A stretch of 64,000 nt of DNA from a virus: the IMG/VR virus record IMGVR_UViG_3300034013_000869, positions 111,661 to 175,660 of that record. The stretch is one strand, 5' to 3'. The notes beneath the pieces were generated by a model that searched no databases, was not told the origin of the DNA, and saw nothing but the letters and a program-made list of their open reading frames with translations. Below are positions 2,001-57,243 of the stretch, piece after piece. Position numbers and translations under genes: made by a program. Numbering within the stretch: position 1 is the stretch's first letter; the number at the start of each line of letters is the position of its first letter.

Positions 2001-2507
2001 TTAAAAAGGTGTATTATCATCATCTAAACCATCACCATAATAAAAATTAAAAGTCAACATTGGTCTACCATCTTTAGCATACCAAATTTCAAATTCAGAA
2101 TCATATTGTGCTAAGGTATCTCTTTTAAGTTTTTTAGCAACTTCAAATACTCTTATTACATCTCTTAATCTTTCCTTTTCATTCATAAAAGCAACAATAG
2201 AAATATCTAAATCATCATTTGTTATCTCAACTTCAACTCCAGTATTTTTGAACATTAATCTAAGAAGATATAGTAAATGACCAAACTGACCATCATCTTC
2301 TGAATCATCATCTTCATCGTCATCTTCATATGAATAGTCTTCTTCATCATCTGTTAGTTTCTTATAACCTTTATCATCATAAAATTCATCGTCATCATCA
2401 TCGTCATCACCATCTGTACTTGGATAATTAGGTCTTCCAAAAAGAGAGTCATCATCATCATCCCAACGACCTTCATTTACTATTTGTGTATACTTTTTAA
2501 TTTTCAT
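2001..2507 (-). CDS. Acidic protein with capsid-targeting-like leader, 168 aa
   Basis: No family recognised. The N-terminus MKIKKYTQIVNEGRW matches the leader shared by about thirteen proteins of this window, with a likely cleavage after V-N-E (residue 12). Then follow runs of Asp and Glu (residues 16-75), making the first half extremely acidic. The last 90 residues look like a compact alpha/beta domain (GHLLYLLRLMFKNTG, ending in FNFYYGDGLDDDNTPF). Its start codon overlaps the TAA of the upstream peptidase gene (TAATG), so the two are translationally coupled. If packaged, an acidic protein of this kind could act as a DNA mimic or counter-ion inside the head; that is speculation. Confidence 0.7.
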   Translation of the reverse strand: MKIKKYTQIVNEGRWDDDDDSLFGRPNYPSTDGDDDDDDDEFYDDKGYKKLTDDEEDYSYEDDDEDDDSEDDGQFGHLLYLLRLMFKNTGVEVEITNDDLDISIVAFMNEKERLRDVIRVFEVAKKLKRDTLAQYDSEFEIWYAKDGRPMLTFNFYYGDGLDDDNTPF

Positions 2508-3868
2508 TATTTTAGTTCTATTTTTAGGTAAGTTTCATCAAAGAAAGCAGTATCTTCTATCTTATATTTCTTTAATATAACAGATAAAGATGTTAATGAA
2601 TCATAAATTTCTTCAATAGCACCATCTTCTAAATCACATTGTAAAGAAACACCACCACCATCTTCACGGACAACTTTAACATCTATAGCAAATGCTGACT
2701 TTTTAAGTTCTGATATTAAACTACCATGTTTTCTTAAAACTTCTTCATCTAAACCAATTTTTCTAACAGTTGGAAGAGAATTCCAATCAACACCAATACT
2801 TGCCTTAGCAAGTTTTTCTAAATATGTAATATTTTGATACTCATCTGCAGTGTGTTCATGCATATATCCAACAGAAACATTAGTACATTCTGATATTTCT
2901 TCTAAAAATGATGCTGAATCGGTATAAACACCTGTTGGATCTAAAGATAAATCCATACCTTGTTTATTATACTCTTTACAAAGAGCTGTTCCAAAATCAT
3001 TCGAACAACAAACTCTACCTAATTGAGATGTTATAACTGAGTGATAGTTTCTTCTATCAAAAGAAACACATCTCTTAATATCTTTAAGATAATCAACCTC
3101 ATCATAAACTGATGAAAGTAATCCAGAACCGATTCCACCTCTTTCTTCACCAATAAAGAAATAATAAAGACCTGGTACATTATGAGCCATCATATATAAC
3201 ATAACAGCCACACCAGCTTTATCATCAGCTCCTAATATAGAATTACCATCGGTAATAATATATTCTTCACCTTTTTCTTCACTTGAATAAAGTTTTGTTA
3301 TTTTTTGTTCTCTATCAGCAGTATCTAAGTGAGAAGTAAACATAGTTTGTGGTTTTGAATCTCCTATTATTTTATAATAGTTACCAACGATATCTTCTTC
3401 TAATTTTGGAAGAAATTGTAAAACTTCTTTTTCATAACGATTATCTGCAAAGTGAGGGTATGTTTTAGTAACTAATGAAAGGAAAGTGCTTCTTACATCT
3501 TTTGGATTGTATTTAAAATCTTCAACTTTAATTAAATTACCATCAATTGGTTCACCAGCAGATAAAGAGTTATACATTCTAAGAAAATCATTAACATCGG
3601 AAGGACTTAATAGACTTCTAAAGTAATATTTAATAAAATTTGATATAGGCATTGGTGTCACTTTACCATCAATAGTAACATCAAATGAATTTTTCTTTTT
3701 AGAAACACTAACCGTTTCAATTCTTAATCCATTATGATATTTAGCAGATATTTCACCTAGCCAAAGTAGCTCAAATGCTACATAATTATTTGCATCTTCC
3801 AGTTCTTTAAGAATACTTTCTAACTCTTTTGTATAAGTAACTCTTACTGATTTTTTATCTTCTGCCAT
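2507..3868 (-). CDS. Zinc aminopeptidase-like protein (M20/M28/M42 type)
   Basis: The 453 residues carry the metal-ligand pattern of co-catalytic zinc peptidases: HLD (H180, D182), GADDKAG (D215), GEERGGIGS (the catalytic and ligand Glu pair 241-242), FDRR (D272) and a late HEHTADE (338-344). Spacing resembles PepT-like tripeptidases and M28/M42 peptidases. The first 150 residues are not part of the peptidase core and are unique here. All key residues are present, so it should be active. A phage might use it to process peptides or cell-wall stems, or to recycle amino acids; the sequence does not tell. A TTAATATATAAC box lies 22 nt before the ATG. Confidence 0.75.
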   Translation of the reverse strand: MAEDKKSVRVTYTKELESILKELEDANNYVAFELLWLGEISAKYHNGLRIETVSVSKKKNSFDVTIDGKVTPMPISNFIKYYFRSLLSPSDVNDFLRMYNSLSAGEPIDGNLIKVEDFKYNPKDVRSTFLSLVTKTYPHFADNRYEKEVLQFLPKLEEDIVGNYYKIIGDSKPQTMFTSHLDTADREQKITKLYSSEEKGEEYIITDGNSILGADDKAGVAVMLYMMAHNVPGLYYFFIGEERGGIGSGLLSSVYDEVDYLKDIKRCVSFDRRNYHSVITSQLGRVCCSNDFGTALCKEYNKQGMDLSLDPTGVYTDSASFLEEISECTNVSVGYMHEHTADEYQNITYLEKLAKASIGVDWNSLPTVRKIGLDEEVLRKHGSLISELKKSAFAIDVKVVREDGGGVSLQCDLEDGAIEEIYDSLTSLSVILKKYKIEDTAFFDETYLKIELK

Positions 3869-3890
3869 TTATAAAAATATTTTTATTATG

Positions 3891-3902
3891 TTATATATTA
3901 AT
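3891..3902 (-). promoter_or_regulatory. TTAATATATA box before peptidase gene
   Basis: Minus-strand TTAATATATAAC, 22 nt before the ATG at 3868. One of the recurrent boxes read here as late promoters. Confidence 0.5.
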
Positions 3903-3904
3903 TA

Positions 3905-4294
3905 TTAAACTTGAATTTCATAAGAATTTGTATAATCAACTTTAACTTGACCATCATTCATGTTTGGTTCTTTCTTAACAAACCTTCTTTGACAATAAAC
4001 TACAGTAGCCTTACTATCTTTAGATGCTTTACTATTTTTCTTAGCCAATTCAGCTGCTTTTTTAATAACCGAATCAATAGGAAGATTTTCTCTAACTCTA
4101 ATAACAACATGAGAACCCGGAACACCTTTAACGTGCATCCAAATATCTTCTTTATCAGCTATATTAAATGTTAAGTGGTCATTAGATTTAGCATCTTTAC
4201 CTACATAGACAACAAATCCGTCTATATCTAATTTTTGTATATTAGGGAATTTATCTTTTTTACCCTCGAATAGTGAAAATTGTTTTATAATCAT
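3905..4294 (-). CDS. NFACT-R domain protein (DUF814, RqcH C-terminal type) with capsid-targeting-like leader
   Basis: The 129 residues are an almost bare NFACT-R domain: SNDHLTFNIADKEDIWMHVK (residues 37-56), then the hallmark PGSHVVIR (59-66), an AAELAKKNSKASKDSKATV helix-strand block and a C-terminal VKVDYTN strand. In bacteria NFACT-R is one domain of RqcH, which adds C-terminal alanine tails to peptides on split 50S subunits. The NFACT-N, HhH and coiled-coil parts are absent, so it may modulate rather than replace RqcH. The N-terminus MIIKQFSLFE-G fits the shared leader with cleavage after L-F-E. A TATATATAG box ends 3 nt before the ATG, implying a leaderless mRNA. Confidence 0.85.
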   Translation of the reverse strand: MIIKQFSLFEGKKDKFPNIQKLDIDGFVVYVGKDAKSNDHLTFNIADKEDIWMHVKGVPGSHVVIRVRENLPIDSVIKKAAELAKKNSKASKDSKATVVYCQRRFVKKEPNMNDGQVKVDYTNSYEIQV

Positions 4295-4297
4295 ATA

Positions 4298-4308
4298 CTA
4301 TATATAAA
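4298..4308 (-). promoter_or_regulatory. TATATATA box 3 nt before NFACT-R start
   Basis: Minus-strand TTTATATATAG ends 3 nt before the ATG at 4294. If it works like a T4 late -10 box, the RNA would start at or next to the start codon. Confidence 0.45.
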
Positions 4309-4317
4309 CTATTTAAA

Positions 4318-4349: not shown

Positions 4350-4367
4350 AATATTTCAATCAAACTA

Positions 4368-6119
4368 TTAGTTCAATAACTGAGCAGCGTCAGTAACTGT
4401 AATAGTCATAAATTGTTTTTGTGGATACCAACCAACTTCAGTTACTGCGTATCTTGAACGTAACAACATTCTTGGTGCGAATGTAGCTTCAGAGATTACA
4501 GAAATAGACTGAGCCATTAAGTAAGGTACGAAAATGATACCTGGTTGGTCAGGGTTATTCTTACGACCTAATACGATTCTGTTATCGTTATATCTCATAT
4601 ATGGATCTACATAGATAGAGATGTCTCCGATTGAACCTACAGGGTATAATTGACCTTGTCCGTTTAATTTAGATTTAACTGGGTTAATTGTGTAACCAGC
4701 GATATCTTGAAGAGCTGCAGCTAAACCTCCGTTTGTGATAAGGTATTGAGCAGGTCCTACACGACCTTCAGTCGCGATATAGTTCGAAGCGTGAGCAATC
4801 TTAGTGATTAACTTTCTTTGAACAGCGTGAGTTGTTTCACCACCAACATAACCTGATGTTTGATTAGCATAAGCTGTATTCAAGTCAAAGATTGTTGTTC
4901 CTGTACCAACAGCACCACTAGATAATGGAGCACTAGCCGCGTTTAATGTACCCATTTCGAAGATTTTAGCAACGATTTGTTTAGAGATTGTTTGAGACAA
5001 CTCATTAACAAGGATAGATTCCATTTTTTGAACGATATCCATACCTGTATTAGCTTTGATATCTTCAATTTCAGTTCTTCTAAGAGCTGAAGATACTTCG
5101 ATAGTACCAACTGCTACAGTTTTAGAAGAGATTTTTGGTCCGATAACACCAGCATATGAATCATCATCTGACTGACGAGACATTGGGTAAGAACCAGCAG
5201 CACCAGTACCAGCTGTCCAGTTTGCAGAGAAACCTGGGATATGGTCTTCTAAAGCAGATACCAATTCGATAGTTTTTGTTCCAGCAACAACATTACCCGT
5301 AATAGTAGAGTAAGTACCTACTTGAGTAATTTGGTCAATCATAGATTGAGTTGGGTTAAAAGTGTTTCTTGCTTGGTCAAATGCCCAAAGTGTAGATGTT
5401 CCACTTGCTAAAGCTGTAGCAGTATGAGCTGTGTTAGCTTGTCTGTAAGCTCTGAAGATTGGGAAACCATCGATACGAGAGAAACCTAAGAACTCAGCAG
5501 TACCTCTTTTATCAGCATTTTCTTGACTAGTTACAGTAACTGTACCAGCGATAGCTGAAGAAGCATTAAGAGATATCCAAACTCTACCGTTTGCTAAACC
5601 ACCTGTAGTTTCATTGATTGAATTAGTAGCTAAGAAAGCTCTAATTGATCTTTGAATAGATGCGTTTTCTGGACAATTTAATTTGAAAACTTGTGGTCTT
5701 TCATCAGCACCATTAACTGAACGAACGTCATCATATTGAAAATCAATATAAAGTAAGTCGATTTTTGGACCTGGAGTTGGTTTAACAGCTACTAAATCTA
5801 AACCGATTGTTTGAGCTGCAATTTTCATTGCTACTGGTAACAAGTTTTGACCTACGTCTCCTGAACCAAGTGATCCACCGTTTCCGTTTCCAGACCAGTT
5901 ACTACCTAGTAAAGAACCAGCTAATGAAGATGGTTGAGCAGCTGTAACAGCTCCCATACCTGCAACGTTAGAAGCGTTAACATACGCATTCTCGTTGATT
6001 GAGTGATATTCAGCCATTTCTGACATCCATTCAACTCTTTCAGCAGATACACCCATGTTTTCCAATACTGGAGTCCACTTCTTAACTGCTTTTTGTTTGT
6101 CTATTCTAATGTGTGACAT
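4368..6119 (-). CDS. 23: Major capsid protein, T4 gp23-like
   Basis: The 583 residues align in outline with T4 gp23. The start IDKQKAVKKWTPVLENMG mirrors the T4 start (KWKPLLEGEG), the stretch NAYVNASNVAGMGAVT mirrors GYNATNIAAGQTSGAVT, and the middle and end carry SSALRRTEIEDIKANTGMD and KLNGQGQLYPVGSIGDISIY. A cleavage site I-N-E (41-43) stands directly before the NASNVA block, where T4 gp23 is cut by gp21. The mature form would thus start at Asn44. It lies downstream of the protease-scaffold gene, as in T4. A TTATATATAG box and an upstream element precede it, consistent with very strong late expression. Confidence 0.93.
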   Translation of the reverse strand: MSHIRIDKQKAVKKWTPVLENMGVSAERVEWMSEMAEYHSINENAYVNASNVAGMGAVTAAQPSSLAGSLLGSNWSGNGNGGSLGSGDVGQNLLPVAMKIAAQTIGLDLVAVKPTPGPKIDLLYIDFQYDDVRSVNGADERPQVFKLNCPENASIQRSIRAFLATNSINETTGGLANGRVWISLNASSAIAGTVTVTSQENADKRGTAEFLGFSRIDGFPIFRAYRQANTAHTATALASGTSTLWAFDQARNTFNPTQSMIDQITQVGTYSTITGNVVAGTKTIELVSALEDHIPGFSANWTAGTGAAGSYPMSRQSDDDSYAGVIGPKISSKTVAVGTIEVSSALRRTEIEDIKANTGMDIVQKMESILVNELSQTISKQIVAKIFEMGTLNAASAPLSSGAVGTGTTIFDLNTAYANQTSGYVGGETTHAVQRKLITKIAHASNYIATEGRVGPAQYLITNGGLAAALQDIAGYTINPVKSKLNGQGQLYPVGSIGDISIYVDPYMRYNDNRIVLGRKNNPDQPGIIFVPYLMAQSISVISEATFAPRMLLRSRYAVTEVGWYPQKQFMTITVTDAAQLLN

Positions 6120-6198: not shown

Positions 6199-6199
6199 A

Positions 6200-8317
6200 T
6201 TAGATGTTTTTGAATCTTTCCATAATAGCAGTAACATCATTATCAGAAAGTTTATCTTCTTGTATAAGACTTTCGTGTGATACTAACTTTTTAGTTACAG
6301 ATTCATTTGTTTTAAGCTTTCTAGTTGCCCAGAAGTGCTCAACTTGAGATTCGTTCATTAAAACTTCAGCTGGGTAAAGTCTAGCTTGTGATAAGATAGA
6401 TTTTTTAGCAGATTCATTCATTTGACTCCAGATAGCCTTAGTGTTTTCAGGCATTAATCTGATTACTCTTTCTTCAAGTGTTTCATTCTTTGTTGATAAT
6501 GCTTCAGCAATTAGACCTAATACATCTTTGGATGTGAAATAACTTCTCTCGTTTATGTGAAGTTTAACAGATTCCTGTTCTTCGTCTGATAGTGCATAAA
6601 AGCTATCTACTTGTGACTTGTTTAAGAATTTTAAGAAATTCAAGTCTGTAGATTCAGAAACTTTACGTTTTTTAGCTTCTTCTATTAATTTATTAATTGA
6701 TTCAGATAATTCAGAATCTTCATGTCCACCAACTTCATAGTTATGTGAATGAACTTCTTCTTCATTTTCTTCATTTTCATTTTCTTCTTCATTTTCCATA
6801 TTGTAAGCCTCTTCTTCGTGAGCTGAAGGAACACCATTGTATTCTTCTTCATCTTCTTCAGTAGCGTTAGGTCCACAATTTTCATCTTCTTCAGCATCTT
6901 CGAAACCAGCAGCTTGTAATGAAGGGAAAGCTTCTTCTTCATTTGATTCAAATAATTTACCACCTTTAGAATTTAATTTTTCAACGATTAATCCTTGGTA
7001 AGAAATTGATTTGTCTAAGTTTTCAGCGATATATTCTGAATAAGCGATATTATCATCTAAATGTTCAGCGATGTACTCAGAGTAAGCGATGTTACCTTCA
7101 ACGTGTTCAGCTAAATATTCTGAATAAGCGATTGAATTATCAACGTGTTCAGCGATGTACTCACCGTAAGCGATACTTTTATCTAAGTTTTCAGCGATGT
7201 ACTCAGAGTAAGCGATGTTTTTGTCTAAGTTTTCAGCTAAATATTCTGAATACTCAATGTTTTTATCCAAATTCTCAGCTAAATACTCAGAATAAGAAAT
7301 GTTTTTATCCAAATTCTCAGCGATATACTCAGAATAAGAAATATTTTTATCAAGATTTTCAGCTAAATATTCTGAATACTCGATATTTTTATCTAAGTTT
7401 TCAGCCAAATACTCAGAGTAGTTAACAGCCTTTTCAAGATTTTCGGCTAAATAGTCATTATGTTTAATAAGTTTATTTGTAGTCTCTTTTAAAGACTTAT
7501 TCTCATTAACCATAATTTGAACTTTCTCAGCCAAATAATCCAAGTACTTAACAACTTGAGAATTTGTGTTATTTAACTCATCGTAATACTCTAAAAGTTG
7601 TTCAAGTTTTTTAGGACTTAAGTTACCTTTAGAAATTGCACCTTTAACTTCTTTCTTAGTAGAAGCTAATTCTTTAACTAAATATTGAGAATAGTCAGTT
7701 AACTGTTGTTTAGTAACAAATTCATTTTTGTTCATATCAAATAGTTGATTTATTTTGGACTCATCGGACATTTCATATATCCTAAAGTTGGAGTTTTGAT
7801 TATAACCCAAAGACTCGTTAAGAACCTTCACGCTCATCTTAGCCGATGCAAATCCTGGATCAGCTACTATATCATAAGTAAATAATTTCTTTAAGGAAAC
7901 AGTACCATCTGATTCAGTAATACCAGCCGCTCTTGAAGAAACAAAAACTGGACAACCATCATCAACTAATGCTTTAGCTTCTTTACCCCAATAGGTACTA
8001 AGAAGTCTAATTTCACCACTAACAAGGTTAGATTCTTTTACATAATTTGCTTTTGTAATTATGTGAGAAGCTCTAGAAAGAGATGTATCAAAAACATCTG
8101 GGTGATCAAACTCACCATAAACAGCACCTAGACTGCTCATTCTATCATTCATCTCATTTAAAGCAGGAAGAAATTTGTCAGCAGTATAAATTCTTTCATT
8201 ACGATTTTTAACACCGAATTCCGTGAATGTACCACCAAGTATATAATCTTTCTTACCATTGACACTTTCTCTTATAAGAGCATTTGTCGAATTTTCTACA
8301 ATTAAAACTGGTTTCAT
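6200..8317 (-). CDS. Prohead protease fused to scaffold (T4 gp21 + gp22-like)
   Basis: Residues about 20-165 are a gp21-type prohead protease (peptidase family S80): GAVYGEFDHP with the catalytic His72, ASHIITKANYV, and VFVSSRAAG with the candidate catalytic Ser127/128. T4 gp21 is about 212 residues; here the chain continues to 705. Residues 286-439 are eleven 14-residue units of the form YSEY[LI]AENLDKNIx, two heptads each, as expected of a coiled-coil scaffold. Every unit contains L-A-E or I-A-E, the cleavage consensus of gp21. A Glu-rich stretch (about 465-525) and a helical C-terminus follow. So protease and its own digestible scaffold are one polypeptide, made just upstream of the capsid gene. 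Two tandem promoters seem to precede it. Confidence 0.88.
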   Translation of the reverse strand: MKPVLIVENSTNALIRESVNGKKDYILGGTFTEFGVKNRNERIYTADKFLPALNEMNDRMSSLGAVYGEFDHPDVFDTSLSRASHIITKANYVKESNLVSGEIRLLSTYWGKEAKALVDDGCPVFVSSRAAGITESDGTVSLKKLFTYDIVADPGFASAKMSVKVLNESLGYNQNSNFRIYEMSDESKINQLFDMNKNEFVTKQQLTDYSQYLVKELASTKKEVKGAISKGNLSPKKLEQLLEYYDELNNTNSQVVKYLDYLAEKVQIMVNENKSLKETTNKLIKHNDYLAENLEKAVNYSEYLAENLDKNIEYSEYLAENLDKNISYSEYIAENLDKNISYSEYLAENLDKNIEYSEYLAENLDKNIAYSEYIAENLDKSIAYGEYIAEHVDNSIAYSEYLAEHVEGNIAYSEYIAEHLDDNIAYSEYIAENLDKSISYQGLIVEKLNSKGGKLFESNEEEAFPSLQAAGFEDAEEDENCGPNATEEDEEEYNGVPSAHEEEAYNMENEEENENEENEEEVHSHNYEVGGHEDSELSESINKLIEEAKKRKVSESTDLNFLKFLNKSQVDSFYALSDEEQESVKLHINERSYFTSKDVLGLIAEALSTKNETLEERVIRLMPENTKAIWSQMNESAKKSILSQARLYPAEVLMNESQVEHFWATRKLKTNESVTKKLVSHESLIQEDKLSDNDVTAIMERFKNI
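7001..7462 (-). repeat. Eleven tandem 42-bp repeats coding for 14-residue scaffold units
   Basis: In-frame tandem repeats within the protease-scaffold gene, coding for YSEY[LI]AE[NH][LV]DxxIx. The copies differ mainly at third codon positions and a few residues, so they are under selection and not a recent expansion. Confidence 0.9.
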
Positions 8318-11289: not shown

Positions 11290-11723
11290 TGAAATTTATC
11301 AACATATTAACAGAAGCCAATCAGGACTATTTAAATGAAATCATAGATAAAATGTCTATTTCTGAGATTGAATATATCGAATCTTTATATTCCAAATTTA
11401 GTGCAATTGAATACATAGATGATAATGATAATGAATGTATGTTTGCTATATTAGATGATAACCTATTAGTAGACATATCAAATCTATATAAAAAATATGG
11501 AATAAAATTCAAAGTGGTGGATTTATCAACTGATATATTTTTCGACAACCACTTTGATGTTCTTTTTGAAAATAATATTGGACAAGATATGTCTAATATC
11601 ATACTTAAATTAATATTAAGTTTCAAAGAAGATTTTACTACAAAGGATATTGTTCTTGATAAAATATTAAGTAAAGGAATATCCAGTCTTACAAAATTTG
11701 ATAAAGAGATTCTAGATAACTAG
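11286..11723 (+). CDS. Hypothetical protein with capsid-targeting-like leader and DUF6576-like tail
   Basis: Overlaps the previous stop by 4 bp (ATGA), hence translationally coupled; a second ATG at 11289 may be the real start. The N-terminus MKFINILTEAN fits the shared leader with cleavage after L-T-E. The C-terminus DKILSKGISSLTKFDKEIL resembles the helix-turn motif ILDKISKxGxxSLTxxEKxFL found at the end of Bacteroidota rhomboid-like proteins. The rest (145 aa in total) is alpha/beta and unrecognised. Its 3' end overlaps the convergent portal gene by 4 bp. Confidence 0.65.
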   Translation: MMKFINILTEANQDYLNEIIDKMSISEIEYIESLYSKFSAIEYIDDNDNECMFAILDDNLLVDISNLYKKYGIKFKVVDLSTDIFFDNHFDVLFENNIGQDMSNIILKLILSFKEDFTTKDIVLDKILSKGISSLTKFDKEILDN

Positions 11724-13435
11724 AATTCGAATTCCCCACCACCTTCAGCAGGAGGAGTTTCTCCACCCTCAGCCGGAGCTTCTGGAGCGGCTTGAGCACC
11801 TTGAGCAGGAGCTTCACCTTCAGCAGGAGGCGTCTCACCACCTTCAGCAGGAGCTTCACCACCTTCAGCAGGAGCACCACCGGCAGCGGCGGCAGCGGCG
11901 GCGACAGACGCAGCATCTTTAGCCCAGTATCTTTGATTTTCAGCAATTTCCTCTTGAGTAAGTTTAAATACATTGTCTATTAAGTAATCAACGTGGAAGT
12001 AAGGTTTCTCACCATTCATAATTCCAACTAATGTTCCAAATATCTCAGCTTTCTTAGCTAAGTTTCCTAATTTCTTCCACTCTTCAAATACTTGATTTGA
12101 GTTAAAAGTAATATCCATTTGATTCATGATAACTTCATCATCTTTCAACTCAGGGAACTCAATTAACATTTGTAATTTAAGAGGTTTAACAATTAATTCT
12201 TTAAAGTTAGCTCTTAATCTATTAACAAAGTTATAAAACTTAATCTCATCTCTTGTCATCTCAGAAGCATCTGAGAAAAGGTTACCACCACCATTTTCTT
12301 TATCGAATCTTTGGAAAGGAATTTTAGAAGCTCTTTTCAAAGCATTATAGAACCAAGTTAACATATCAGACTCATTCAAGTTATGTCCTTCTGGTGAAAC
12401 TAATTCCATAGCTGGTGTACCAGCATCTCCTTCAGGAAACCAAATTTGTTTATTATAAGGTAAGTGTTTAGCCCCATTGATACTTAAAGTACCTAATGTA
12501 TCATCCCATTCTACTTCTTCAGAATAGTCATTAATTAATTGACCAATTTGTTCTTCAGCTCTTTGTCTTGATAAACCTTTAATTGGAATAGTAAATTTTT
12601 GATAAACGGTAGCATTAATAATGTTAAACATAACTCTTGTTTGTTCAAGAATCTTTAACTGATTATATGGTTTAATTAAACCTTCAACATAAGAAGTTTC
12701 TGAATAATCATTTTGAGTAGAGTAAGAAATATAAACTATTTGAGAATCTAAGAATATTCTTCTTAATTGAGGATCCTCTGGAAACTGAATCCATAAGTGA
12801 CCTATTGTTGGTTCATAAGCTGGAACTAAAGTTTCTGGTCTTAATCTATTAAATCCAATGATATTTTTCTTTTTATCATCATAAATAATTTCAAGTGCTA
12901 AATAACCATCAACTAAAAAGTCTTTCATCATATTCCAAGCCGTGATACTATCACCGAATCCAAACTTATTATAAATTTTTTCAAAATACTCTTGATATTT
13001 ATCTTTTACTTCTTGTGGATACTCATTAGATAATGTTTTTGGAGAACAAAAGTCTCTATCATCATTGTAAACGATACTCTCATCAGCTATCGAACTAACA
13101 AAGTCTCTAATCTCATCTTTAATAGAATACTCTCTTAGGATTCTTCTTTTATCACCATATGCTTTATCTAAGTAAGGAATAGATTTTCTATTTAATACCG
13201 AAGCAACGGCTCTTTGAGAAAAGAAATCATACATTGAGTTACCTCTAGCAGCGTATGGATCTTCGTTGATACCAATACCTACTTGATTTCTAACAATCAT
13301 ATCATCATAATTCATACCATATGATGATAAACTTCTTAAAATTCTATTAAAAAGTCCTTTGTTTTCAACTGCACTATTTGTGTAAGCGAAATTCGAATTT
13401 GATGTATCTTGATTAGATTGATTATAAGAAGCCAT
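11720..13435 (-). CDS. 20: Portal vertex protein, T4 gp20-like
   Basis: The 571 residues match the gp20 family: GYLALEIIYDDKKKNIIGF, LRPETLVPAY, IVYISYSTQND, a portal wing, LGTLSINGAKHLPYNKQIWF, and KIPFQRFDKENG with the long helix that lines the channel (EMTRDEIKFYNFVNRLRANF). T4 gp20 has 524 residues. The extra part here is a C-terminal low-complexity tail of about 70 residues rich in Ala, Pro, Glu and Gly (repeats of APAEGGETPP), unusually GC-rich for this genome. The portal forms the dodecameric DNA gate of the head. A TTTAATATATAA box lies 23 nt before the ATG. Confidence 0.92.
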   Translation of the reverse strand: MASYNQSNQDTSNSNFAYTNSAVENKGLFNRILRSLSSYGMNYDDMIVRNQVGIGINEDPYAARGNSMYDFFSQRAVASVLNRKSIPYLDKAYGDKRRILREYSIKDEIRDFVSSIADESIVYNDDRDFCSPKTLSNEYPQEVKDKYQEYFEKIYNKFGFGDSITAWNMMKDFLVDGYLALEIIYDDKKKNIIGFNRLRPETLVPAYEPTIGHLWIQFPEDPQLRRIFLDSQIVYISYSTQNDYSETSYVEGLIKPYNQLKILEQTRVMFNIINATVYQKFTIPIKGLSRQRAEEQIGQLINDYSEEVEWDDTLGTLSINGAKHLPYNKQIWFPEGDAGTPAMELVSPEGHNLNESDMLTWFYNALKRASKIPFQRFDKENGGGNLFSDASEMTRDEIKFYNFVNRLRANFKELIVKPLKLQMLIEFPELKDDEVIMNQMDITFNSNQVFEEWKKLGNLAKKAEIFGTLVGIMNGEKPYFHVDYLIDNVFKLTQEEIAENQRYWAKDAASVAAAAAAAGGAPAEGGEAPAEGGETPPAEGEAPAQGAQAAPEAPAEGGETPPAEGGGEFEF

Positions 13436-13506: not shown

Positions 13507-13983
13507 TTATACATAGAAAGTTCTAAAAACAACCTTCAAATCTGTTGAAGTTAGCTTACTTTCAACGAAAAATGATTGAAAATCGTCTTGATTTTTAGAA
13601 ATTGCATCTACTAATTTTTGAAATTTCATAGCTGATCTTTTCTCTAAAAATTTATTACCTTCACTCCAAGTAATATCACCTGTTTTAGGATCGATAACAG
13701 AGTCTATTCTATGTGTATTATTACCAGAGTTGAATATGGATCTAAGTAAAAAAGACTCACCTGATCTAAATAAACTCATCTCTTGGAACTTAGCCTCAGG
13801 AAAAGGTCTAACACCACCAACTAAAATACCAAAAATCATCTCGTCAACTTCTCTTCTAGACATATTAACAGCGTGTGTTCTTAATTCTTTAGCTCTATCG
13901 ATTTGCCCAAAATCTTCTAATTTATCAGCAGCACTGATATATGTTGAGTAATCCAATTCTTCAAATTTTCTGATGTGTTTCAT
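13507..13983 (-). CDS. Hypothetical protein with capsid-targeting-like leader, 158 aa
   Basis: The N-terminus MKHIRKFEELDYSTY fits the shared leader; cleavage could follow F-E-E or F-E. The body has no recognised family: a helical first part (AADKLEDFGQIDRAKELRTH), a glycine turn (FGILVGGVRPFPEAKF) and a mixed C-terminal half containing DSVIDPKTGDITWSEGNKFL. It lies just upstream of the portal gene, on the same strand, with its own TTAATATATAAT box 22 nt before the start. Location and leader suggest a packaged head protein. Confidence 0.6.
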   Translation of the reverse strand: MKHIRKFEELDYSTYISAADKLEDFGQIDRAKELRTHAVNMSRREVDEMIFGILVGGVRPFPEAKFQEMSLFRSGESFLLRSIFNSGNNTHRIDSVIDPKTGDITWSEGNKFLEKRSAMKFQKLVDAISKNQDDFQSFFVESKLTSTDLKVVFRTFYV

Positions 13984-22870: not shown

Positions 22871-22873
22871 ATA

Positions 22874-22885
22874 CTATATATTAAA
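22874..22885 (-). promoter_or_regulatory. TTAATATATA box 3 nt before the hydrolase gene
   Basis: Minus-strand TTTAATATATAG, ending 3 nt before the ATG at 22870. Confidence 0.45.
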
Positions 22886-40348: not shown

Positions 40349-40370
40349 ATTTTTTTTAATTATTTTTTAT

Positions 40371-40384
40371 AAGTTATATATTTT
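40371..40384 (-). promoter_or_regulatory. TATATA box before the tail tube gene
   Basis: Minus-strand AAAATATATAACTT, 22 nt before the ATG at 40348. Confidence 0.4.
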
Positions 40385-40462
40385 AATTTTTACTTCCTTT
40401 ATCTCTATTTTGAAAATTATGTTGTAAAAAATGCCATTTCCACTATTTAATAAATAGTATAT

Positions 40463-40810: not shown

Positions 40811-40836
40811 TTTCATATAAAAAGAAAACGTTTTTA

Positions 40837-41961: not shown

Positions 41962-41990
41962 AAAAACCCATCTTTAGGATGGGTTTTTTG
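41961..41990 (+). terminator. Terminator after gp47 gene
   Basis: AACCCATC - TTTAG - GATGGGTT stem with A and T runs on either side. It works for both convergent genes; the stop of the minus-strand cupin gene lies within it. Confidence 0.8.
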
Positions 41991-42240
41991 TTAACTTTAT
42001 TTTTAAATCATTTGTTCCTTTTATTAATCGATGATAAGTACCCATTGGTATAAATACTTCTCCTTTTATTTCTTTAGGTAGTTCATTGTCAATTTGAATT
42101 AACCAATCTGTTTCACCAATAGACTCAATTATTCTATCTTCTCTATCACGATGCCACATAAACTCACCAGAATCGACCATCTGACTGAATTCTCTGATAA
42201 AAGTGTTATCACTTAATTTATTTTCTTGAAATGGTAACAT
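41974..42240 (-). CDS. Cupin-like small protein, 88 aa
   Basis: The sequence is a single small beta-barrel type: SGEFMWHRDREDRIIESIGE (with the H-x-D/H-R-E cluster), TDWLIQIDNELPKEIKGEVF, IPMGTYHRLIKGTNDLKIKL. The two blocks with His and Glu fit the two cupin motifs that bind a metal ion. Its substrate is unknown. The start shares one base with the stop of the ART-like gene, so it belongs to the same operon as the following packaged-protein candidates. Confidence 0.55.
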   Translation of the reverse strand: MLPFQENKLSDNTFIREFSQMVDSGEFMWHRDREDRIIESIGETDWLIQIDNELPKEIKGEVFIPMGTYHRLIKGTNDLKIKLTKNPS

Positions 42241-42824
42241 TATATAATCTTATTAAAATTTTCAATTAAAGACTCATCAAATATTGCTACATTTTTAGAA
42301 CCTCTTTCTACTACATAAAATCCATCATATCCTTTAGACTTTATTTGATTGATAATTGGATCAGACTCAACAACTCTCCAAGCTCCATTTTTTACTCTCC
42401 ATAGATAATGATAAACACTTTGTTCTTTTTCTGTTATATCAAATTCCTCATCTGTGTCCGGATTATATCCTTTCATACCATTACTAACTTTGATAAACTT
42501 AGTACCATTTACCTCATCGATATAATTATTATCTATCATTTTTTGAATCACTGTAACTAAATCTAATTCTTTCATTGTTTCAATATCCATTAGATTACAT
42601 AACTTAATATTAGATTTAAGTTTAACTTCAAAAACAGAGGCATCAGGAAATTCATCTTTCTCATCAAGTGAGGCAAAGTTTTTAGCAAAGTCTAAATTAT
42701 TCGTTAAAAATATAGCACCTGCGAATCTTTTCTTTTCAGGTGGAAAATCACCTTTTCTGTTACCATGATATAATTTTTCACTTGTAGTAGATTCAAATAA
42801 TTGATATGTTTTTAAGTATTTCAT
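42240..42824 (-). CDS. Putative ADP-ribosyltransferase-like protein with capsid-targeting-like leader
   Basis: After the leader MKYLKTYQLFESTTS (cleavage after L-F-E) comes KLYHGNRKGDFPPEKKRFAG with an H-G pair, then AIFLTNNLDFAKNFAS, the S/T-containing strand and helix found in ART-type folds, a VFEVKLKSNIKLCNL strand, and a late GYDGFYVVERGSKNVAIFDE block. This order (xYHG, F(L/F)xxxxxxA, YDGxxV ... VxFD) is that of ADP-ribosyltransferases in phage polyvalent proteins. The catalytic Glu is not certain. In T4 the Alt ADP-ribosyltransferase is likewise packaged with the genome and modifies host RNA polymerase. This call is inference from pattern and leader. Confidence 0.55.
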   Translation of the reverse strand: MKYLKTYQLFESTTSEKLYHGNRKGDFPPEKKRFAGAIFLTNNLDFAKNFASLDEKDEFPDASVFEVKLKSNIKLCNLMDIETMKELDLVTVIQKMIDNNYIDEVNGTKFIKVSNGMKGYNPDTDEEFDITEKEQSVYHYLWRVKNGAWRVVESDPIINQIKSKGYDGFYVVERGSKNVAIFDESLIENFNKII

Positions 42825-42827
42825 ATA

Positions 42828-43400
42828 TTACCAAAAACCGGGATAAGTGCGTCCTCCAAAAAGATGACCATATTTATTGAGTCTGCAGCTCCAATATCCA
42901 GCTTTAGTCTTATCTTTCTTTAAATGACATTGGTGTCTAGCAGCAAATGACTTTCTTGCCTTAGGATTACTAACTTTAGCAGTTAACCCACCATGAACAT
43001 CACCAAAAGAAATCTTTTTAACATTTCCTTTTGCACTCTTGACATATACATAGTATTTTTTAACACCACCACGCATTGGATAATTTAATTTAACATCTTT
43101 ACCTTTATATTCGGCTTCCTCTCTTATCTCTTCTATATTTTCCATAGGTAAATCTAAAGGAACTAGTTCACCATTGAACATTCCAAACTTACCAATATCA
43201 GTTGATTCATATAATTCTTTATCAACATCACATAGATTAACTTTACCTAAATCAAATAATTGTCTAGCTTCTTTGATAACTTCATAGAAAGCTTCTGAAC
43301 CTGGTCTGAATATATTTTCAGTAATAGGTTTATTATTCTCTAGGTGGTATTTAAGAGACTCTGATACATTAACAGATTCTGTGAATTTTATAATCTTCAT
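42828..43400 (-). CDS. Phage protein with C-terminal Cys/His domain and capsid-targeting-like leader, 190 aa
   Basis: The leader MKIIKFTESVNVSES has cleavage expected after F-T-E. The C-terminal 80 residues form a distinct domain: KKYYVYVKSAKGNVKKISFG, NPKARKSFAARHQCHLKKDK, AGYWSCRLNKYGHLFGG. H-x-C, W-S-C and a further His could bind zinc. I recall this block as a conserved module in T4-like phage proteins of unknown function. Four similar leader-bearing genes stand in a row here (42240-44228). Confidence 0.6.
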   Translation of the reverse strand: MKIIKFTESVNVSESLKYHLENNKPITENIFRPGSEAFYEVIKEARQLFDLGKVNLCDVDKELYESTDIGKFGMFNGELVPLDLPMENIEEIREEAEYKGKDVKLNYPMRGGVKKYYVYVKSAKGNVKKISFGDVHGGLTAKVSNPKARKSFAARHQCHLKKDKTKAGYWSCRLNKYGHLFGGRTYPGFW

Positions 43401-43414
43401 AAATTATATATTTT

Positions 43415-43843
43415 TTATTGATTAGCAATTGAATTTATAAAGTCTGAAATATTCATAACTTTAACATCATTTTCTGGGTTTGATTGTTCAACCTCTTCAA
43501 CTTCACCACTACAAGTACAATCCTGACAACATCCACAATCTTCTTGACCATTACATTGATCACAACATCCACATCCAACTTCTTGAGTAGGTACTTGAGG
43601 TTCTTGTGAGAATTCTTCTCCTTCAGGTTTAACCCCAACTTCGATTTCGATTGTAAAGTTTTCGAAATTTTTAATCTTTCTTAGTTTATCAAATTCTTTT
43701 TTAACCTTTTCTTGATCTTCAACTTCTGTTTTAAATGATGGCTTCTCATCTTTATCAGCTAAAACCTCTACATTAAAAAGAACTTCTTGGTCTTTGACTT
43801 TCTCATCCTTTTTTGTTTCGTTAAATTTTTTAATTTGTATCAT
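43415..43843 (-). CDS. Cys-cluster protein with capsid-targeting-like leader, 142 aa
   Basis: The leader MIQIKKFNETKKDE has cleavage expected after F-N-E. A charged alpha/beta part (NFTIEIEVGVKPEGEEF) follows. Residues 91-111 hold nine Cys in 21 residues (CGCCDQCNGQEDCGCCQDCT then C), a metallothionein-like metal or Fe-S binding cluster. The end is acidic (SNPENDVKVMNISDF). No known family; the cluster is flanked by disordered acidic sequence. An antisense-like shadow frame exists at 43453-43638. Confidence 0.65.
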   Translation of the reverse strand: MIQIKKFNETKKDEKVKDQEVLFNVEVLADKDEKPSFKTEVEDQEKVKKEFDKLRKIKNFENFTIEIEVGVKPEGEEFSQEPQVPTQEVGCGCCDQCNGQEDCGCCQDCTCSGEVEEVEQSNPENDVKVMNISDFINSIANQ

Positions 43844-43853
43844 AGTTTATTAT

Positions 43854-44228
43854 TTATTTTTGGCTTAATTTTTTTACAATTAAAGCACATTTTTCATATT
43901 CCTCTTCGGATTCCAACTCATCTTTATATTCCATAAGTTGTTTTCTATCACCTAATTCTAATTTAAGTCTGAATCTAACTTCTCTTAATTCATCCATATT
44001 ATTAACTTCAGAGTCTATTAATTTATCAATAACATCTCTATCAAATTGCGACATTTTTAGAAATTGATTCCAGTTATAAACATCATTCTCAGATAGAAAG
44101 TCTAAAATATTAACAACACAAGAATCAACTCTACTAAGTTTAGTAGTCTTGTTCTTTTTCTTAGAGTTATTAAATATCTTCTTAAAAAACTCTTCGTTGA
44201 TAAATTGATTATATCTGTTAATTTTCAT
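43854..44228 (-). CDS. Hypothetical protein with capsid-targeting-like leader, 124 aa
   Basis: The ATG at 44228 is chosen although the frame is open to an ATG at 44249: from 44228 the protein begins MKINRYNQFINEEFFKK, an almost exact copy of the leader seen at 56962 (MKIKSFRKFINEEVSG), and a TTTAATATATAA box ends 4 nt before it. The rest is helical and charged (CVVNILDFLSENDVYNWNQF, DELESEEEYEKCALIVKKLS). No family recognised. Confidence 0.65.
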   Translation of the reverse strand: MKINRYNQFINEEFFKKIFNNSKKKNKTTKLSRVDSCVVNILDFLSENDVYNWNQFLKMSQFDRDVIDKLIDSEVNNMDELREVRFRLKLELGDRKQLMEYKDELESEEEYEKCALIVKKLSQK

Positions 44229-44232
44229 ACTC

Positions 44233-44244
44233 TTATATATTAAA
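44233..44244 (-). promoter_or_regulatory. TTAATATATA box 4 nt before the 124-aa gene
   Basis: Minus-strand TTTAATATATAA; it overlaps the longer start option at 44249, which supports the start at 44228. Confidence 0.45.
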
Positions 44245-44267
44245 TTCACTTACTAAGAAAAGATAAA

Positions 44268-44279
44268 TTAATATATATG
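44268..44279 (+). promoter_or_regulatory. TTAATATATA box before the 2052-aa gene
   Basis: TTAATATATATG, 19 nt before the ATG at 44299. Confidence 0.5.
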
Positions 44280-44298
44280 TAAAAGTTTACATTATTAA

Positions 44299-47200
44299 AT
44301 GTCAAATCATAAAAACCTATTATTCTTCAACAAAGAAGGAGATTATTTAAATTTCAACTACAACTATACGACAGATAGATTTGAAGGAGATTTACTTTTT
44401 CACGAAAACTCTTCAGATACTTTCAAAACATTAGGAATTTATATGTTGGAGAATATACCATCATTTGAGTTCGAACTACCTGGAACGCTAACCTTAAATA
44501 AATTCCAGTTATTCAATGAATATGGATTGTTTTTCTATAATAGCAAATATGAGAATCAAAGTATTAATAGAATTGAACCCATTAACAATGATCCAACATT
44601 TTATTCGAAATGGATATTTGGTGATAACTTTGAAAAGAAATTTCCAATAGGTAGTATAATTAGATTTGATTCAGTATTTTTAGAGTTCAACAATCCTACA
44701 CAAACTTATACCGTTGTATCAACGAAAAAAGGAGCTGTAATGATTATAAGTTCTGTTGATAATGCAACATTTGAGTCAATGTATATTTCACAATATTCCG
44801 ATCAGTCAATATATGTAGGAAGAACAATATCAGCAATAAATGGAATTGGAGTTTATAATTATATAAATAGTTTATATAGTGATAATCTTTCTTATTGGAA
44901 TGAACCACAATTTTATGATAAATTATATAAAAAGAAAAAATTAAATATAATAAACTCACAATTAAATGATGGGATTTACACAGTAAAAGAAGAAGAACTA
45001 ACAGATAACAAACACTTTGAATACTACACATCAGGAATGAATGGTGAAGATATAATAATTGAGGTTGTTAGTAAAACAGATTTACCAAGAATATATGATG
45101 GTGGTTTAAATATAAACCAAGTATCAAATCAAATAACATCAGGTGGTGAGATTTTAACATTCTCATACACATCAAATGTAGGAGCTAACGGACCATATAC
45201 ATCATTAACTTCAAATGGCGCATCATCTTCCGTAACGGGAACTGGTGGATTATTTGATGTTGTAGTTTCCGGTGGTGTTGTATCATCAGTTACAATAAAT
45301 AAAATAGGTAAACAATATACTGTTGGTGATTTATTTGTTATAGATGGTGTATCTATAGGTGGTAGCACAATAATAGATGATATTTATATAACTATAAATA
45401 GTGTAGCGGATCCGATAGTAAGTGTAGAAAATAAAATATACTTCTCTAGTAGTGTTCCGGATATATTAAAACCTGGTAGAGAATTTAAAATAATAGGCTC
45501 AACAACAAATCAAAACTTCTTTACTATAGCTAATATTCCTACATTTACGGGAAACACACAAGAAACATTCTACGGAACTCAATCACAAGTTCTTTGGAAT
45601 AATAAAATATATCAATGTATATTAGCTTATACTCAAAGTTTTACTGGAGCGACTCAGTTTGTAGATCCATATACAACAGAATATTGGTCACCGTCCATAA
45701 GTTATATAAAAGTAGACCAAGTAGTAACACCTGAAATATTACTAGGTGCTCAAATATACCTAACAACTGATAGAATATATTTTGGATATGGATTCACATA
45801 TAGCACGGCAGCAACTTTAGCATCTGCTGCTGAAAAATATAAAGATGATTTAAAGTCATTTAATATTGATTTATTTTATGAAAATAATAAATTAAAGGCA
45901 GATTTAATATATCCGAGTAAATATGCAGAAGTAAATTTCTATCAAAATCAAATTGGACCAACATATTCAATAGGAAATGTTACACAAACATATGAGAGAG
46001 TGACTCAAGTAGAAGAGTCTGTAAACTCTGAACTAAATTATGATATATCTCAAAATATTTTGGTCAATATTGTATTTACAGATATAGATGAATATGGATT
46101 TAAAGTTATTATAAACGGACAAGTTTATCAAGAAGAATTAGCAGCGATATACAGCGGTGGTCTTTTAGATATGCAAAGAACAATTGACAGAACTCTTAGA
46201 AATTGGCTAGCTAGACATTATACAGAACTAATAGGATTAGGTATAATAGCTGATATACAATACACGGGTCCTATATTTTCACCATTTGTAAACTCAATAA
46301 AACTACAAACACAATATCCGAATGTTCCTTTAATAATAGATGATATTTTTGTAGGGATAACTGCTGATTATTATATTGAACACTCTAGAGTTCTTTTTAG
46401 TAACAATGATTATACTAATACTAGACCAACTATTGGACCAGTTTTAACTTTAACTATAAATGACGATGAATTTAGTCAAAATACAATATATCAAACCGGA
46501 TCATATTCACAATATCCTGATATTCCGGCTACTTTATCAGCATGGGTTGATGAACACGGAGACTATTTAAGAACATTTGGAATTTTAGTAACACCTATAA
46601 ATAATTTACTAAAATTTGATGTTAAAAGATTAGATAGGAGACTTGATTACACTATAAACACAGGCAAATTATCAATACCAGGTATTATAGACTACACAAT
46701 AACTAAAAAAATAAAGGGTAATGATGGTTTACTTATAACCTCAAATGAGGTATCTTTACCTACTGATTTAGTATCATTTGAAGATGCTGGATTTGCAACA
46801 GGAATGGTTTTCTCTATTAATAATACCATACATCCTTATAACAATCAAGAGTTTGTTATTCAATTTTTGGATCCACAAGTCTTAAATTTAAGTTATCAGG
46901 GACCATTCTGGGGATTAACATCTGGAATTTGTAATTCATCAGCATTTATCACATTAGCATTTGACACTGGATATGGACAAACAGCATGTGATGGACCTAT
47001 TGTTGGACCAACTCCTAGTGGAGCAGGACCATATCAAATAGGAGCATTTGATCCATCAGCATTTACTTTAACATATAATCCAAATACTTATACACTAAAC
47101 ACATATAATCTTCAAGGTTATCCAGGAACATCAGGCTTAGTAGACTTAATCTATGTTCAGTTATCTAATTCAATTTATGCTTTTGGAGATGACTTAACGG

Positions 47201-56430: not shown

Positions 56431-56449
56431 TTAGAAATATAAATTTTAC

Positions 56450-56464
56450 AATGTATATATAAAA
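56450..56464 (-). promoter_or_regulatory. TATATATA box before the tape measure gene
   Basis: Minus-strand TTTTATATATACATT, about 20 nt before the ATG at 56430. Confidence 0.4.
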
Positions 56465-56478
56465 TATGATTATTCTTC

Positions 56479-56490
56479 TTAATATATAAC
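56479..56490 (+). promoter_or_regulatory. TTAATATATA box before the 152-aa gene
   Basis: TTAATATATAAC, 23 nt before the ATG at 56514. Confidence 0.5.
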
Positions 56491-56513
56491 TATAAGAAAT
56501 CATCGGTGATATT

Positions 56514-56972
56514 ATGAAAATTAAAAGATTAATAGAACATTATTTATTTAACAAATCAGTTAAAGAGATGGAATTAGACAAAATTTTAGAGAAAGTCTTA
56601 AAAAAGAAAACTCTAACACCAAGGGAAAAGGGATTTATTGAGTTATACAACTCAACCCAAGAAGTCTTAATGAAAGACTATTTATATCTTTCAAAAAACT
56701 CAGCTTTTAAAAAGATAACTGAGATATTAGAAGTTGGTAAAAAGATAATATGTGACCTACACGACAGAAATGGTAAGATAGGTCTTGAAATTATAGGAAT
56801 TGTGAACAATTTTGAACAAGAAACTTGCTCATTAACTTTAAAAGGTGGTGAAAAACACAATCTTCATGATAAGTTCCTTTATAATTTAATATATAACATA
56901 AAGAAGGACCAATATTCAATTGAAGAACAAGATGAATACTTCGAAAAAATACCTACTGAGAATGAAGATTAA
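56514..56972 (+). CDS. Hypothetical protein with DUF6576-like motif, 152 aa
   Basis: Residues 21-45 (MELDKILEKVLKKKTLTPRE then KGFIELYN) match the IL-x-K-[IV]-x-K-x-x-x-LT-x-x-EK-x-F motif noted in two other proteins here. The rest includes a small beta barrel-like part (KIICDLHDRNGKIGLEIIGI, CSLTLKGGEKHNLHDKFL). Unknown function. The next gene starts inside its last codons (11-bp overlap). Confidence 0.55.
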   Translation: MKIKRLIEHYLFNKSVKEMELDKILEKVLKKKTLTPREKGFIELYNSTQEVLMKDYLYLSKNSAFKKITEILEVGKKIICDLHDRNGKIGLEIIGIVNNFEQETCSLTLKGGEKHNLHDKFLYNLIYNIKKDQYSIEEQDEYFEKIPTENED

Positions 56973-57243
56973 AAGTTTTAGAAAATTTATAAACGAAGAA
57001 GTATCAGGTACTGAGTTAGTAGGACCAATTGGTCCGGCTTATGGAGAAACAGGTCTTCAAAATAAGACTGTTACTTTCCATGACACCAATGTTATTCAAT
57101 CAGATATAGATAATAAAATATACACCATAGACGAATATAATAATGTATATGGTGACTATCTAAAATCAGGTGGTAAGCCACTACCAGAAGGATTTAATCG
57201 TGAAAATTTAAACAAAATACTCGATTTTTTATCAGGTAAGTAA
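56962..57243 (+). CDS. Small protein with capsid-targeting-like leader, 93 aa
   Basis: The ATG at 56962 is preferred: it gives MKIKSFRKFINEEVSG, nearly identical to the leader at 44228 and to T4 MKTYQEFIAE. The frame is open further upstream, but that part overlaps the previous gene. Cleavage is expected after I-N-E. The mature part (GPIGPAYGETGLQNKTVTFH, DNKIYTIDEYNNVYGDYLKS) is unrecognised. Confidence 0.65.
   Translation: MKIKSFRKFINEEVSGTELVGPIGPAYGETGLQNKTVTFHDTNVIQSDIDNKIYTIDEYNNVYGDYLKSGGKPLPEGFNRENLNKILDFLSGK

Follow-up and report, generated by a model that had tools for sequence, protein, structure and literature searches.

Leader genes and head genes of the window

The DNA considered here, hereafter the window, is the last 64 kb of the 175,660-base IMG/VR virus record IMGVR_UViG_3300034013_000869, and our subject is a short N-terminal leader, ending in glutamate (Glu), which recurs there on small proteins of otherwise unrelated sequence, together with the phage head genes of the same stretch. 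Feature coordinates are window positions, L-numbered items denote pieces or loci of relatives or of the record itself, an arrow marks a predicted cleavage point, and papers are cited by PMC number from the extracts available. Genes were called by a custom script and not by Prodigal, giving 210 genes for the whole record, with genes at the borders of the 20-kb pieces being cut.

The window carries a T4-type head module consisting of a gp23-type capsid protein, a prohead protease and a portal protein (Table 1). The protease, which scores 18.3 bits against Pfam S77, below the cut-off of 27 bits, shares one open reading frame (ORF) with a C-terminal half that is taken for the scaffold, and the leader genes at 3905 and 2001 lie close behind the capsid gene. 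Capsid proteins of the relatives LR756502 (642 kb) and LR745206 (635 kb) are 73-74% identical to that of the window, with 53% for LR756504 (636 kb) and 51% for LR756501 (735 kb); the relatives of 634, 636, 642 and 735 kb belong to the Mahaphage clade, for which Bacteroidetes hosts are predicted (PMC7162821). As judged from sequence, the phage of the record is kin of these giant Bacteroidetes-infecting phages.

Leaders were scored with a weight matrix built from 36 leaders of the record, which were chosen by eye, each seed being left out when its own gene was scored. The main threshold was 6 bits, and the controls were windows beginning at internal Met residues and N-termini shuffled within themselves, that is, composition-shuffled. 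An earlier note, made from the window alone, had listed thirteen leader genes. All thirteen N-termini read as given there, and the leader stands, to differing degrees, for twelve of them, nine of which reach 6 bits (2001, 13507, 21735, 22259, 22938, 33734, 42828, 43415 and 43854). The gene at 11286 was dropped: it scores 3.1 bits and is unsupported because Glu is absent at that place in 9 of the 12 distinct orthologue N-termini. Two of these nine have a Glu elsewhere; among the Glu-bearing orthologues, that in L036 keeps the residue and the other two are near-copies of the record's phage.

Orthologues of the 2001 gene retain leaders of the form aromatic...E, such as MKLKKYKDIFE and MKLKNYKELFE, and the genes at 21735 and 56962 have no orthologue among the loci compared. 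The latter was left unscored because the gene caller took an overlapping ORF, so that direct reading is what supports its leader. The 43854 gene probably starts at an inner ATG, at 44228.

Table 1. Head genes, scaffold repeat and leader genes of the window
Position	Strand	Feature	Evidence
2001-2507	-	Leader protein, MKIKKYTQIVNE↓GRW, acidic body, three genes past the capsid gene	16.2 bits
3905-4294	-	Leader and NFACT-R, MIIKQFSLFE↓GKK, adjoins the capsid gene	PF05670; own score 5.8 bits, orthologue-backed
4368-6119	-	Major capsid protein, gp23 type	PF07068, 3.9e-28
6200-8317	-	Prohead protease (S77-like) fused to presumed scaffold	phrog_207 head maturation protease, 1.8e-30
7022-7546	-	Scaffold repeat array within the protease-scaffold ORF	11 class-pattern copies, most at a 14-residue period (YSEYIAENLDKNIx)
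11720-13435	-	Portal protein, gp20 type	phrog_213, 2e-61
13507-13983	-	Leader protein, MKHIRKFE↓ELDYSTYISAADK	14.2 bits; orthologues MKHLRKFEELDYSTYMSAADK
21735-22262	+	Leader protein, MKKLVYLKKFNE↓ASE	10.6 bits
22259-22870	-	Leader protein, MKFIKTFE↓SYN	8.9 bits; orthologues MKYIKTYE, MKHIKIFE
22938-23615	-	Leader protein, MKHIRTFE↓TYR, Q/P/A-rich tail	8.2 bits; orthologue MKHIRQFE in LR756502
33734-34300	+	Leader protein, MRHLKKFKLFNE↓EVD	10.8 bits; orthologue MKYLKGYSSFNE
42240-42824	-	Leader and ART-like domain, MKYLKTYQLFE↓STT	Leave-one-out score <3; leader of such kind in 16/17 aligned relatives
42828-43400	-	Leader protein, MKIIKFTE↓SVN	9.7 bits; orthologue MIHKFNQYKE↓ISENLKYHL
43415-43843	-	Leader and Cys-cluster protein, MIQIKKFNE↓TKK	7.6 bits; orthologue MKKIKRFNE↓AKK
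43854-44228	-	Leader protein, MKINRYNQFINE↓EFF	13.3 bits; orthologues MIRIDSYMEFINE, MSRIRKYKEFITE
56962-57243	+	Leader protein, MKIKSFRKFINE↓EVS	Read directly; 11-base overlap with the preceding gene

Abundance of the leader

At 6 bits or more, and with leave-one-out scoring, the leader is found on 36 of the 210 genes of the record (17%), compared with 16 of 920 internal-Met windows and 3.5% of shuffled N-termini. Since this exceeds both backgrounds, the leader is real, ordered and spread across the whole record. Subtracting about four occurrences expected by chance and adding the clear sub-threshold cases, we estimate the leader genes of the 175-kb record at 35-45. When the same matrix is applied to LR756502, which was covered in 32 pieces (640 kb, 1002 genes), 147 of the 1002 genes reach the threshold, compared with 40 of 3246 internal-Met windows and 2.8% of shuffles, and subtraction of either background rate leaves some 120-135. 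Thus the motif search over the whole record and related phages, which the earlier note had proposed, finds the leader genome-wide and not limited to the window. The claim that the bodies are unrelated after the Glu holds in LR756502, where grouping the 133 leader proteins of at least 7 bits by their bodies at E<1e-5 yields 124 families. Neighbouring leader genes on the same strand (at least 8 bits) number 29 in LR756502, compared with 8.8 in permutations and a maximum of 18 in 1000 of them.

The samples of LR756501, PTm1, MA9V-1, T4 (49 kb) and Lak-B5 (41 kb) consist of pieces and not of whole genomes. With the record-trained matrix the leader reaches threshold in 21/248 genes of the LR756501 pieces, 16/301 of PAU, 7/159 of the MA9V-1 pieces and 2/72 of T4. 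A second count, run beside the first on a call set with genes of at least 50 residues and a fixed background, gives 140/970 for LR756502, 15/236 for the LR756501 pieces, 22/251 for G001, 29/165 for G003, 17/293 for PAU, 7/143 for PTm1, 7/151 for MA9V-1 and 2/70 for T4. The leader is not equally frequent in cellular genes, being found at 6 bits in 7/363 genes of a low-GC Bacteroidota control (1.9%) and in 1/577 genes of other cellular loci.

At the DNA level, a pattern for the leader has no match in the record, the pattern being too strict. In LR756502 the hexamer TATATA occurs at -18 to -4 ahead of 39/112 leader genes and 80/798 non-leader genes (p = 1e-10), and in the LR756501 pieces ahead of 4/14 leader genes and 12/209 others (p = 0.01); this box may be a late promoter. 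A TAATATATA box stands a few bases ahead of many start codons, for example at window 22871-22885 and 44229-44245, and a consensus promoter scan of 40000-46000 gives fewer sites than in shuffles.

The leader and the scaffold repeat

In T4, changes in the ten-residue targeting sequence affect mainly targeting when made at residues 4 and 7, and processing when made at residues 8 and 10 (PMC9026906); in MKTYQEFIAE of the T4 record these positions are Y4, F7, I8 and E10. The class pattern [FYW]xx[FYW][ILVM]xE takes its positions from these mutants, although it was applied after the leaders and the repeat had been seen. At N-termini it is found in 14/209 genes of the record, in long-form leaders only (0.6 expected from shuffles), in 29/970 of LR756502 (2.2 expected), 9/236 of the LR756501 pieces (0.7), 9/251 of G001 (0.7), 8/165 of G003 (0.5), 3/151 of MA9V-1 (0.2), 2/70 of T4 (0.1) and 1/143 of PTm1 (0.2), and in none of the N-termini of PAU (0/293; 0.4 expected) or of the Bacteroidota control (0/363; 0.3).

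The same pattern is repeated within the protease-scaffold ORF, which is the richest in it of its proteome, with 11 copies in the record, 11 in LR756502, 14 in the LR756501 pieces and 11 in G001, the runner-up having at most 2; the scaffold of G003 lies outside the pieces covered. Between 10 and 14 copies are present in 48/48 distinct protease-scaffold ORFs picked by their start motif from 87 sources. The array is modelled within one helix (residues 235-450), with pLDDT of about 67-81 over the repeats in a model that is poor as a whole (mean pLDDT 55.6). Because the class pattern is common to the N-termini and the repeat, the leader looks like one copy of the scaffold repeat, each copy having a candidate cleavage site.

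Even by itself, a basic residue followed by the aromatic pair is enriched at N-termini, with 35 occurrences in the record versus 8.8 in shuffles, 126 versus 37.7 in LR756502, 32 versus 9.8 in G001, 31 versus 7.3 in G003 and 19 versus 9.2 in the LR756501 pieces; the values are 3 versus 2.3 for T4 and 10 versus 9.1 for Bacteroidota. The internal proteins of T4 co-purify with its scaffold protein gp22 (PMC9026906).

Scaffold-repeat copies also occur far from the head module, at L148:1-380 (about 620.0-620.4 kb of LR756501), where collagen-like GSSG/GTSG repeats are followed by three of them (IKYAEYLAEQIDKSINYQEYIAEQLDKSIQYSEYVAEHID).

Evidence on the cleavage site

In the NFACT-R family, the terminal Glu could be followed in 66 homologues, which amount to 41 distinct N-terminal contexts. 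The Glu is kept in 36/36 contexts alignable at the domain start, despite widely differing leaders. In five of these contexts the site is internal, the protein being a fusion with a further domain in front, and two of the five have no nearby Met. Among the five non-alignable contexts, L029 plainly retains the Glu, and the other four are diverged bodies behind leader-like starts.

For the capsid protein, cleavage is predicted at INE↓NAYVNA after residue 43 (codon 5991-5993). Glu followed by Asn is present in 18/20 distinct contexts, 17 of which read INE↓N; five of the 87 sources have no usable capsid ORF. Transfer of this site to T4 and PAU was dropped, the alignment being poor there, and these two are the exceptions among the 20.

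Counting back from the cleaved bond, the 112 LR756502 leaders of at least 8 bits have Asn 9-fold over background at P2, and Ser 4-fold and Ala 2.8-fold at P1', with I, F, Y or L at P3 in 96/112; Glu at P1 is built into the score. In two other phages, the sites used by leaders can be compared with those in core proteins of the same phage, namely the protease, a scaffold candidate and the capsid N-terminus in PAU, and the protease polyprotein and capsid N-terminus in MA9V-1. The PAU scaffold candidate, gp155, is our own choice, since gp152, which is labelled scaffolding, bears the PAU leader and was left out of the core. PAU has L[YF]E↓[AS] in 16 leaders and at 3 core-protein sites (0.1 expected), and LNE↓[AS] in 8 leaders and at 3 core-protein sites (0.1 expected), with [FIV]NE in neither; MA9V-1 has [FIV]NE in 6 leaders and at 12 core sites (0.5 expected), with L[YF]E in neither. 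In these two phages, then, the predicted leader sites match the predicted core-protein sites of the same lineage.

The proteins that carry the leader

Among the 43 proteins of the record that were scanned for cargo functions, family matches are to NFACT-R, NUDIX (1e-13) and DUF5856 (4.5e-14), with a weak methyltransferase match. The NFACT-R assignment of the earlier note for 3905-4294 is borne out by PF05670 (1.8e-16, 61.1 bits versus a cut-off of 29.8), and the 22259 protein, described there as cysteine-hydrolase-like, has no Pfam match at E<=0.1. The last 100 or so residues of the 22938-23615 protein are rich in Q, A, P and G and are followed by an acidic tail.

The protein at 42240-42824, which had been called ART-like, likely has the ART (ADP-ribosyltransferase) fold, as structural matches of moderate strength to its model suggest; no Pfam ART match is obtained. 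The model has a pLDDT of 86, with residues 1-14, the leader, disordered. In a Foldseek search the best E is 0.02, with none at or below 0.001. The best VIA-align match is a stretch of the cyanophage A4 pre-ejectosome (Z 6.9, 142 residues, 4.6 Å), a range that can reflect a mere common arrangement, and most of the 50 VIA-align matches listed are what we take to be ART relatives (ParT, RES, Tpt1, PARPs). The same ART-like body occurs at L292:2908-3537 and L293:872-1501 with a wholly different N-terminus (MNLQEQTYKMKKLMGLKELTLEND), which is perhaps another packaging tag.

In LR756502, families were sought for 125 of the 133 proteins whose leader scores at least 7 bits, the other eight having been dropped beforehand as doubtful or cut. 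Matches were obtained to an Rnl1-type RNA ligase (1.7e-20), phage lysozyme (4.3e-23), PPK2 (5.9e-77), RNase T (7.4e-7), SET (2.3e-11), Acb1 (1.6e-6) and 2'-5' RNA ligase (2e-11); the Acb1-like match is assigned to L137:13773-14312 because of the two HxT motifs there. The leader of an IMPDH-like match (L138:100) is doubtful. Most of the scanned leader proteins have no Pfam match at 0.01, and PADLOC run on 40 LR756502 leader proteins gives 0 matches.

Comparison with known systems

The closest parallel is provided by the T4 internal proteins IPI-IPIII, in which a short N-terminal leader likewise stands ahead of a Glu on unrelated small proteins. The sequence MKTYQEFIAE, which the earlier note gave to all three, belongs to IPII and IPIII, whereas IPI begins MKTFKEFTSTTTPVSTITE in the T4 record. 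T4 and the phage of the record also share an S77-type protease, a gp23-type capsid protein and a gp20-type portal in one genome, and the aromatic-aromatic-aliphatic-Glu positions of the long-form leaders. The differences concern scale and the scaffold: T4 has three internal proteins and Alt, whereas we estimate 35-45 leader genes in the record and find more than 100 in the 642-kb relative, and the protease and scaffold of the record's phage group form one ORF with 10-14 tag-like units, of which T4 gp22 has none. The ART-like protein, with its packaging-type leader, may be likened to T4 Alt, a packaged and injected ADP-ribosyltransferase; the evidence for its fold is moderate.

The large phages SPN3US and phiKZ resemble the record's phage in that several head proteins are trimmed after Glu, often before Ser (PMC10052503). 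They use an A-X-E motif and a gp245-type protease, with N-terminal propeptides of 20, 24 or 111-254 residues and nine known substrates (PMC10052503), whereas the record's group has mostly I, F, Y or L at P3, leaders of about 8-16 residues and dozens of tagged proteins. The A-X-E motif is not that of the LR756502 leaders of at least 8 bits, with their P3 residues as given above.

The Sphingomonas phage PAU, like the record's phage, has one leader, MKT[LI]xxLYE, on many small proteins, a number of which are encoded near head genes, and two of these were annotated as internal capsid protein by the depositors. The letters of the PAU leader differ from those of the record, being LYE↓ or LNE↓ before A or S, in accordance with PAU's own core proteins. 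Nothing useful on PAU proteomics turned up in the literature searched.

PMC9026906 already contains the idea that T4-like phages can package a variety of proteins by means of targeting sequences. In the extracts available of PMC10052503, PMC9026906, PMC7824862, PMC13282480, PMC9503650, PMC7162821 and PMC9723584, a set that lies outside subscription papers and preprints, there is no mention of a leader shared by dozens of proteins, of a scaffold repeat matching a tag, or of lineage-matched sites.

Interpretation

We consider that the leader is very probably a capsid-targeting and cleavage propeptide, as the earlier note had predicted; the head module, the match to the T4 residues, the kept Glu and the PAU and MA9V-1 sites argue for this on comparative grounds, for the listed genes other than 11286. 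A fuller account, which adds copying of the scaffold unit and injection, seems to us moderately probable. According to this account, the leader would be a portable propeptide of the T4 kind that copies one unit of the scaffold repeat: two aromatic residues three positions apart (i and i+3), an aliphatic one, and a Glu that is also a candidate site for the protease. Proteins bearing the tag would be built into the prohead core together with the fused protease-scaffold. Cleavage by the S77-like protease would follow, after the Glu in leaders, scaffold repeats and capsid protein alike, and the cargo would be freed inside the head as the protease dismantles the scaffold. It would then be injected with the DNA, to act against the defences of the host and bring the cell under phage control.

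Several results weigh against this account or parts of it. T4 gp22 has 0 copies of the class pattern, none of T4's four internal matches being in gp22, so that targeting in T4 does not depend on repeats of this kind; in PAU, PTm1 and MA9V-1 no scaffold or protease protein has more than one copy or ranks among the richest, and the likeness of leader and scaffold is, on the sequences compared, confined to the record's phage group. At the level of letters the matrix places the repeat units no higher than the top 8-22% among internal 7-mers that end in Glu. The letter-level likeness is thus modest, and what is alike is therefore the residue classes at the positions important in T4. Many of the leaders are short (MKHLKKFNE↓S) and fall outside the T4 pattern, and no clear leader of the record's kind is found in PTm1 or Lak-B5, the matrix giving 7/152 in the PTm1 pieces and 0/37 in the 41 kb of Lak-B5. 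As to the sites, the core proteins of MA9V-1 contain a further 5 LNE sites with no counterpart in its leaders, and those of the record have only 2 [FIV]NE (0.6 expected) and 9 [IL]AE↓[AN], mostly in the repeat, whereas its leaders show the opposite, with 12 [FIV]NE and 0 [IL]AE↓[AN]. As to the cargo, tagged PPK2 and lysozyme are not obvious injected effectors, and a GT17 match (L136:10156) was judged a false leader, the motif lying inside the domain.

Lak-B5 (L297-L310) has xLYESIMxSxSxTVKxKLNE and LxESLFDDD on several N-termini, which may be leader families of its own; a loose motif is found in 46/329 cases versus 29.7 in shuffles, a mild excess.

The points concerning the scaffold bear most directly on an alternative in which the leader is again a targeting signal and a prohead-protease propeptide, but does not act by scaffold copying, its likeness to the repeat reflecting a shared protease substrate or a common kind of helix. 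T4 targeting works with a scaffold that, like those of PAU, PTm1 and MA9V-1, has no repeated pattern, the capsid protein shares INE↓N without an aromatic pair, and the letters of leader and repeat are only modestly similar. Against this stands the aromatic pair, which lies upstream of the cleavage site, is enriched at N-termini by itself in the record and LR756502 but not in Bacteroidota, and corresponds to the T4 residues needed for targeting and not for processing (PMC9026906). On this evidence we regard the alternative as unlikely, though one to be taken seriously.

The diversity of the tagged proteins would also fit a general sorting signal, and the greater frequency of TATATA upstream of leader genes means that these may be co-regulated for another reason. 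The leader could then be an unremoved signal for sorting to a replication compartment, a membrane or an infection-stage partner. We hold this to be improbable, since the leader matches T4 capsid targeting and the scaffold, leader sites are lineage-matched in PAU and MA9V-1, and the Glu persists where the site lies at a domain border inside a protein, for which a signal that sorts purely from the N-terminus would have no need. AT-rich genomes often have Lys-rich starts, and the gene starts come from a simple script, but a translation-start or composition effect, in which A-rich starts yield Met-Lys-rich N-termini, is very hard to credit given the shuffled N-termini, the scarcity of the leader and the want of the class pattern in AT-rich Bacteroidota, and the Glu kept among NFACT-R orthologues.

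To return to the leader as a packaging propeptide that copies a scaffold unit, its scale and the scaffold-repeat link were both missed in the earlier note. For most genes in huge phages no function is known. A packaging tag legible in the sequence would single out those products that reach the cell alongside the DNA, ahead of any phage gene expression, and the tagged Acb1-like anti-CBASS phosphoesterase and Rnl1-type RNA ligase of the 642-kb phage are of kinds used against host defence. For the record's phage group only, T4 gp22 being without the pattern, the scaffold match offers an idea of how targeting could work, with the leader posing as a scaffold unit. More broadly, Mahaphage-type phages could be bulk protein-delivery particles, in which about 120-135 proteins, or about 1 in 8 genes of a 642-kb genome, are loaded by a tag of 8-16 residues that equals one scaffold-repeat copy and are freed by the scaffold-dismantling protease, PAU and others having tag codes of their own. 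We offer this tentatively, as a proposal slightly more apt to fail than to hold; if it is true, other lineages such as PAU having their own codes, the injected set of such phages could be read from sequence alone.

Other features near the head genes

Between two leader genes near the capsid gene, window 2507-3868 encodes a 453-residue protein that matches phrog_4191 (peptidase, 6e-65) and has no Pfam match. The protein of window 471-974 begins MIDKFEGRWRFLSNFYPC, and similar starts are found downstream of the capsid gene in several relatives; it looks like a putative NADAR-type protein. A 163-residue ORF at L002:1622-2113 matches the gp23-type capsid family phrog_138 weakly (9.8e-6 for the whole protein, with no single stretch passing) and is possibly another head protein. 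In LR756501, L146:11314-11850 is a second, short prohead-protease-like ORF of 178 residues without a scaffold part.

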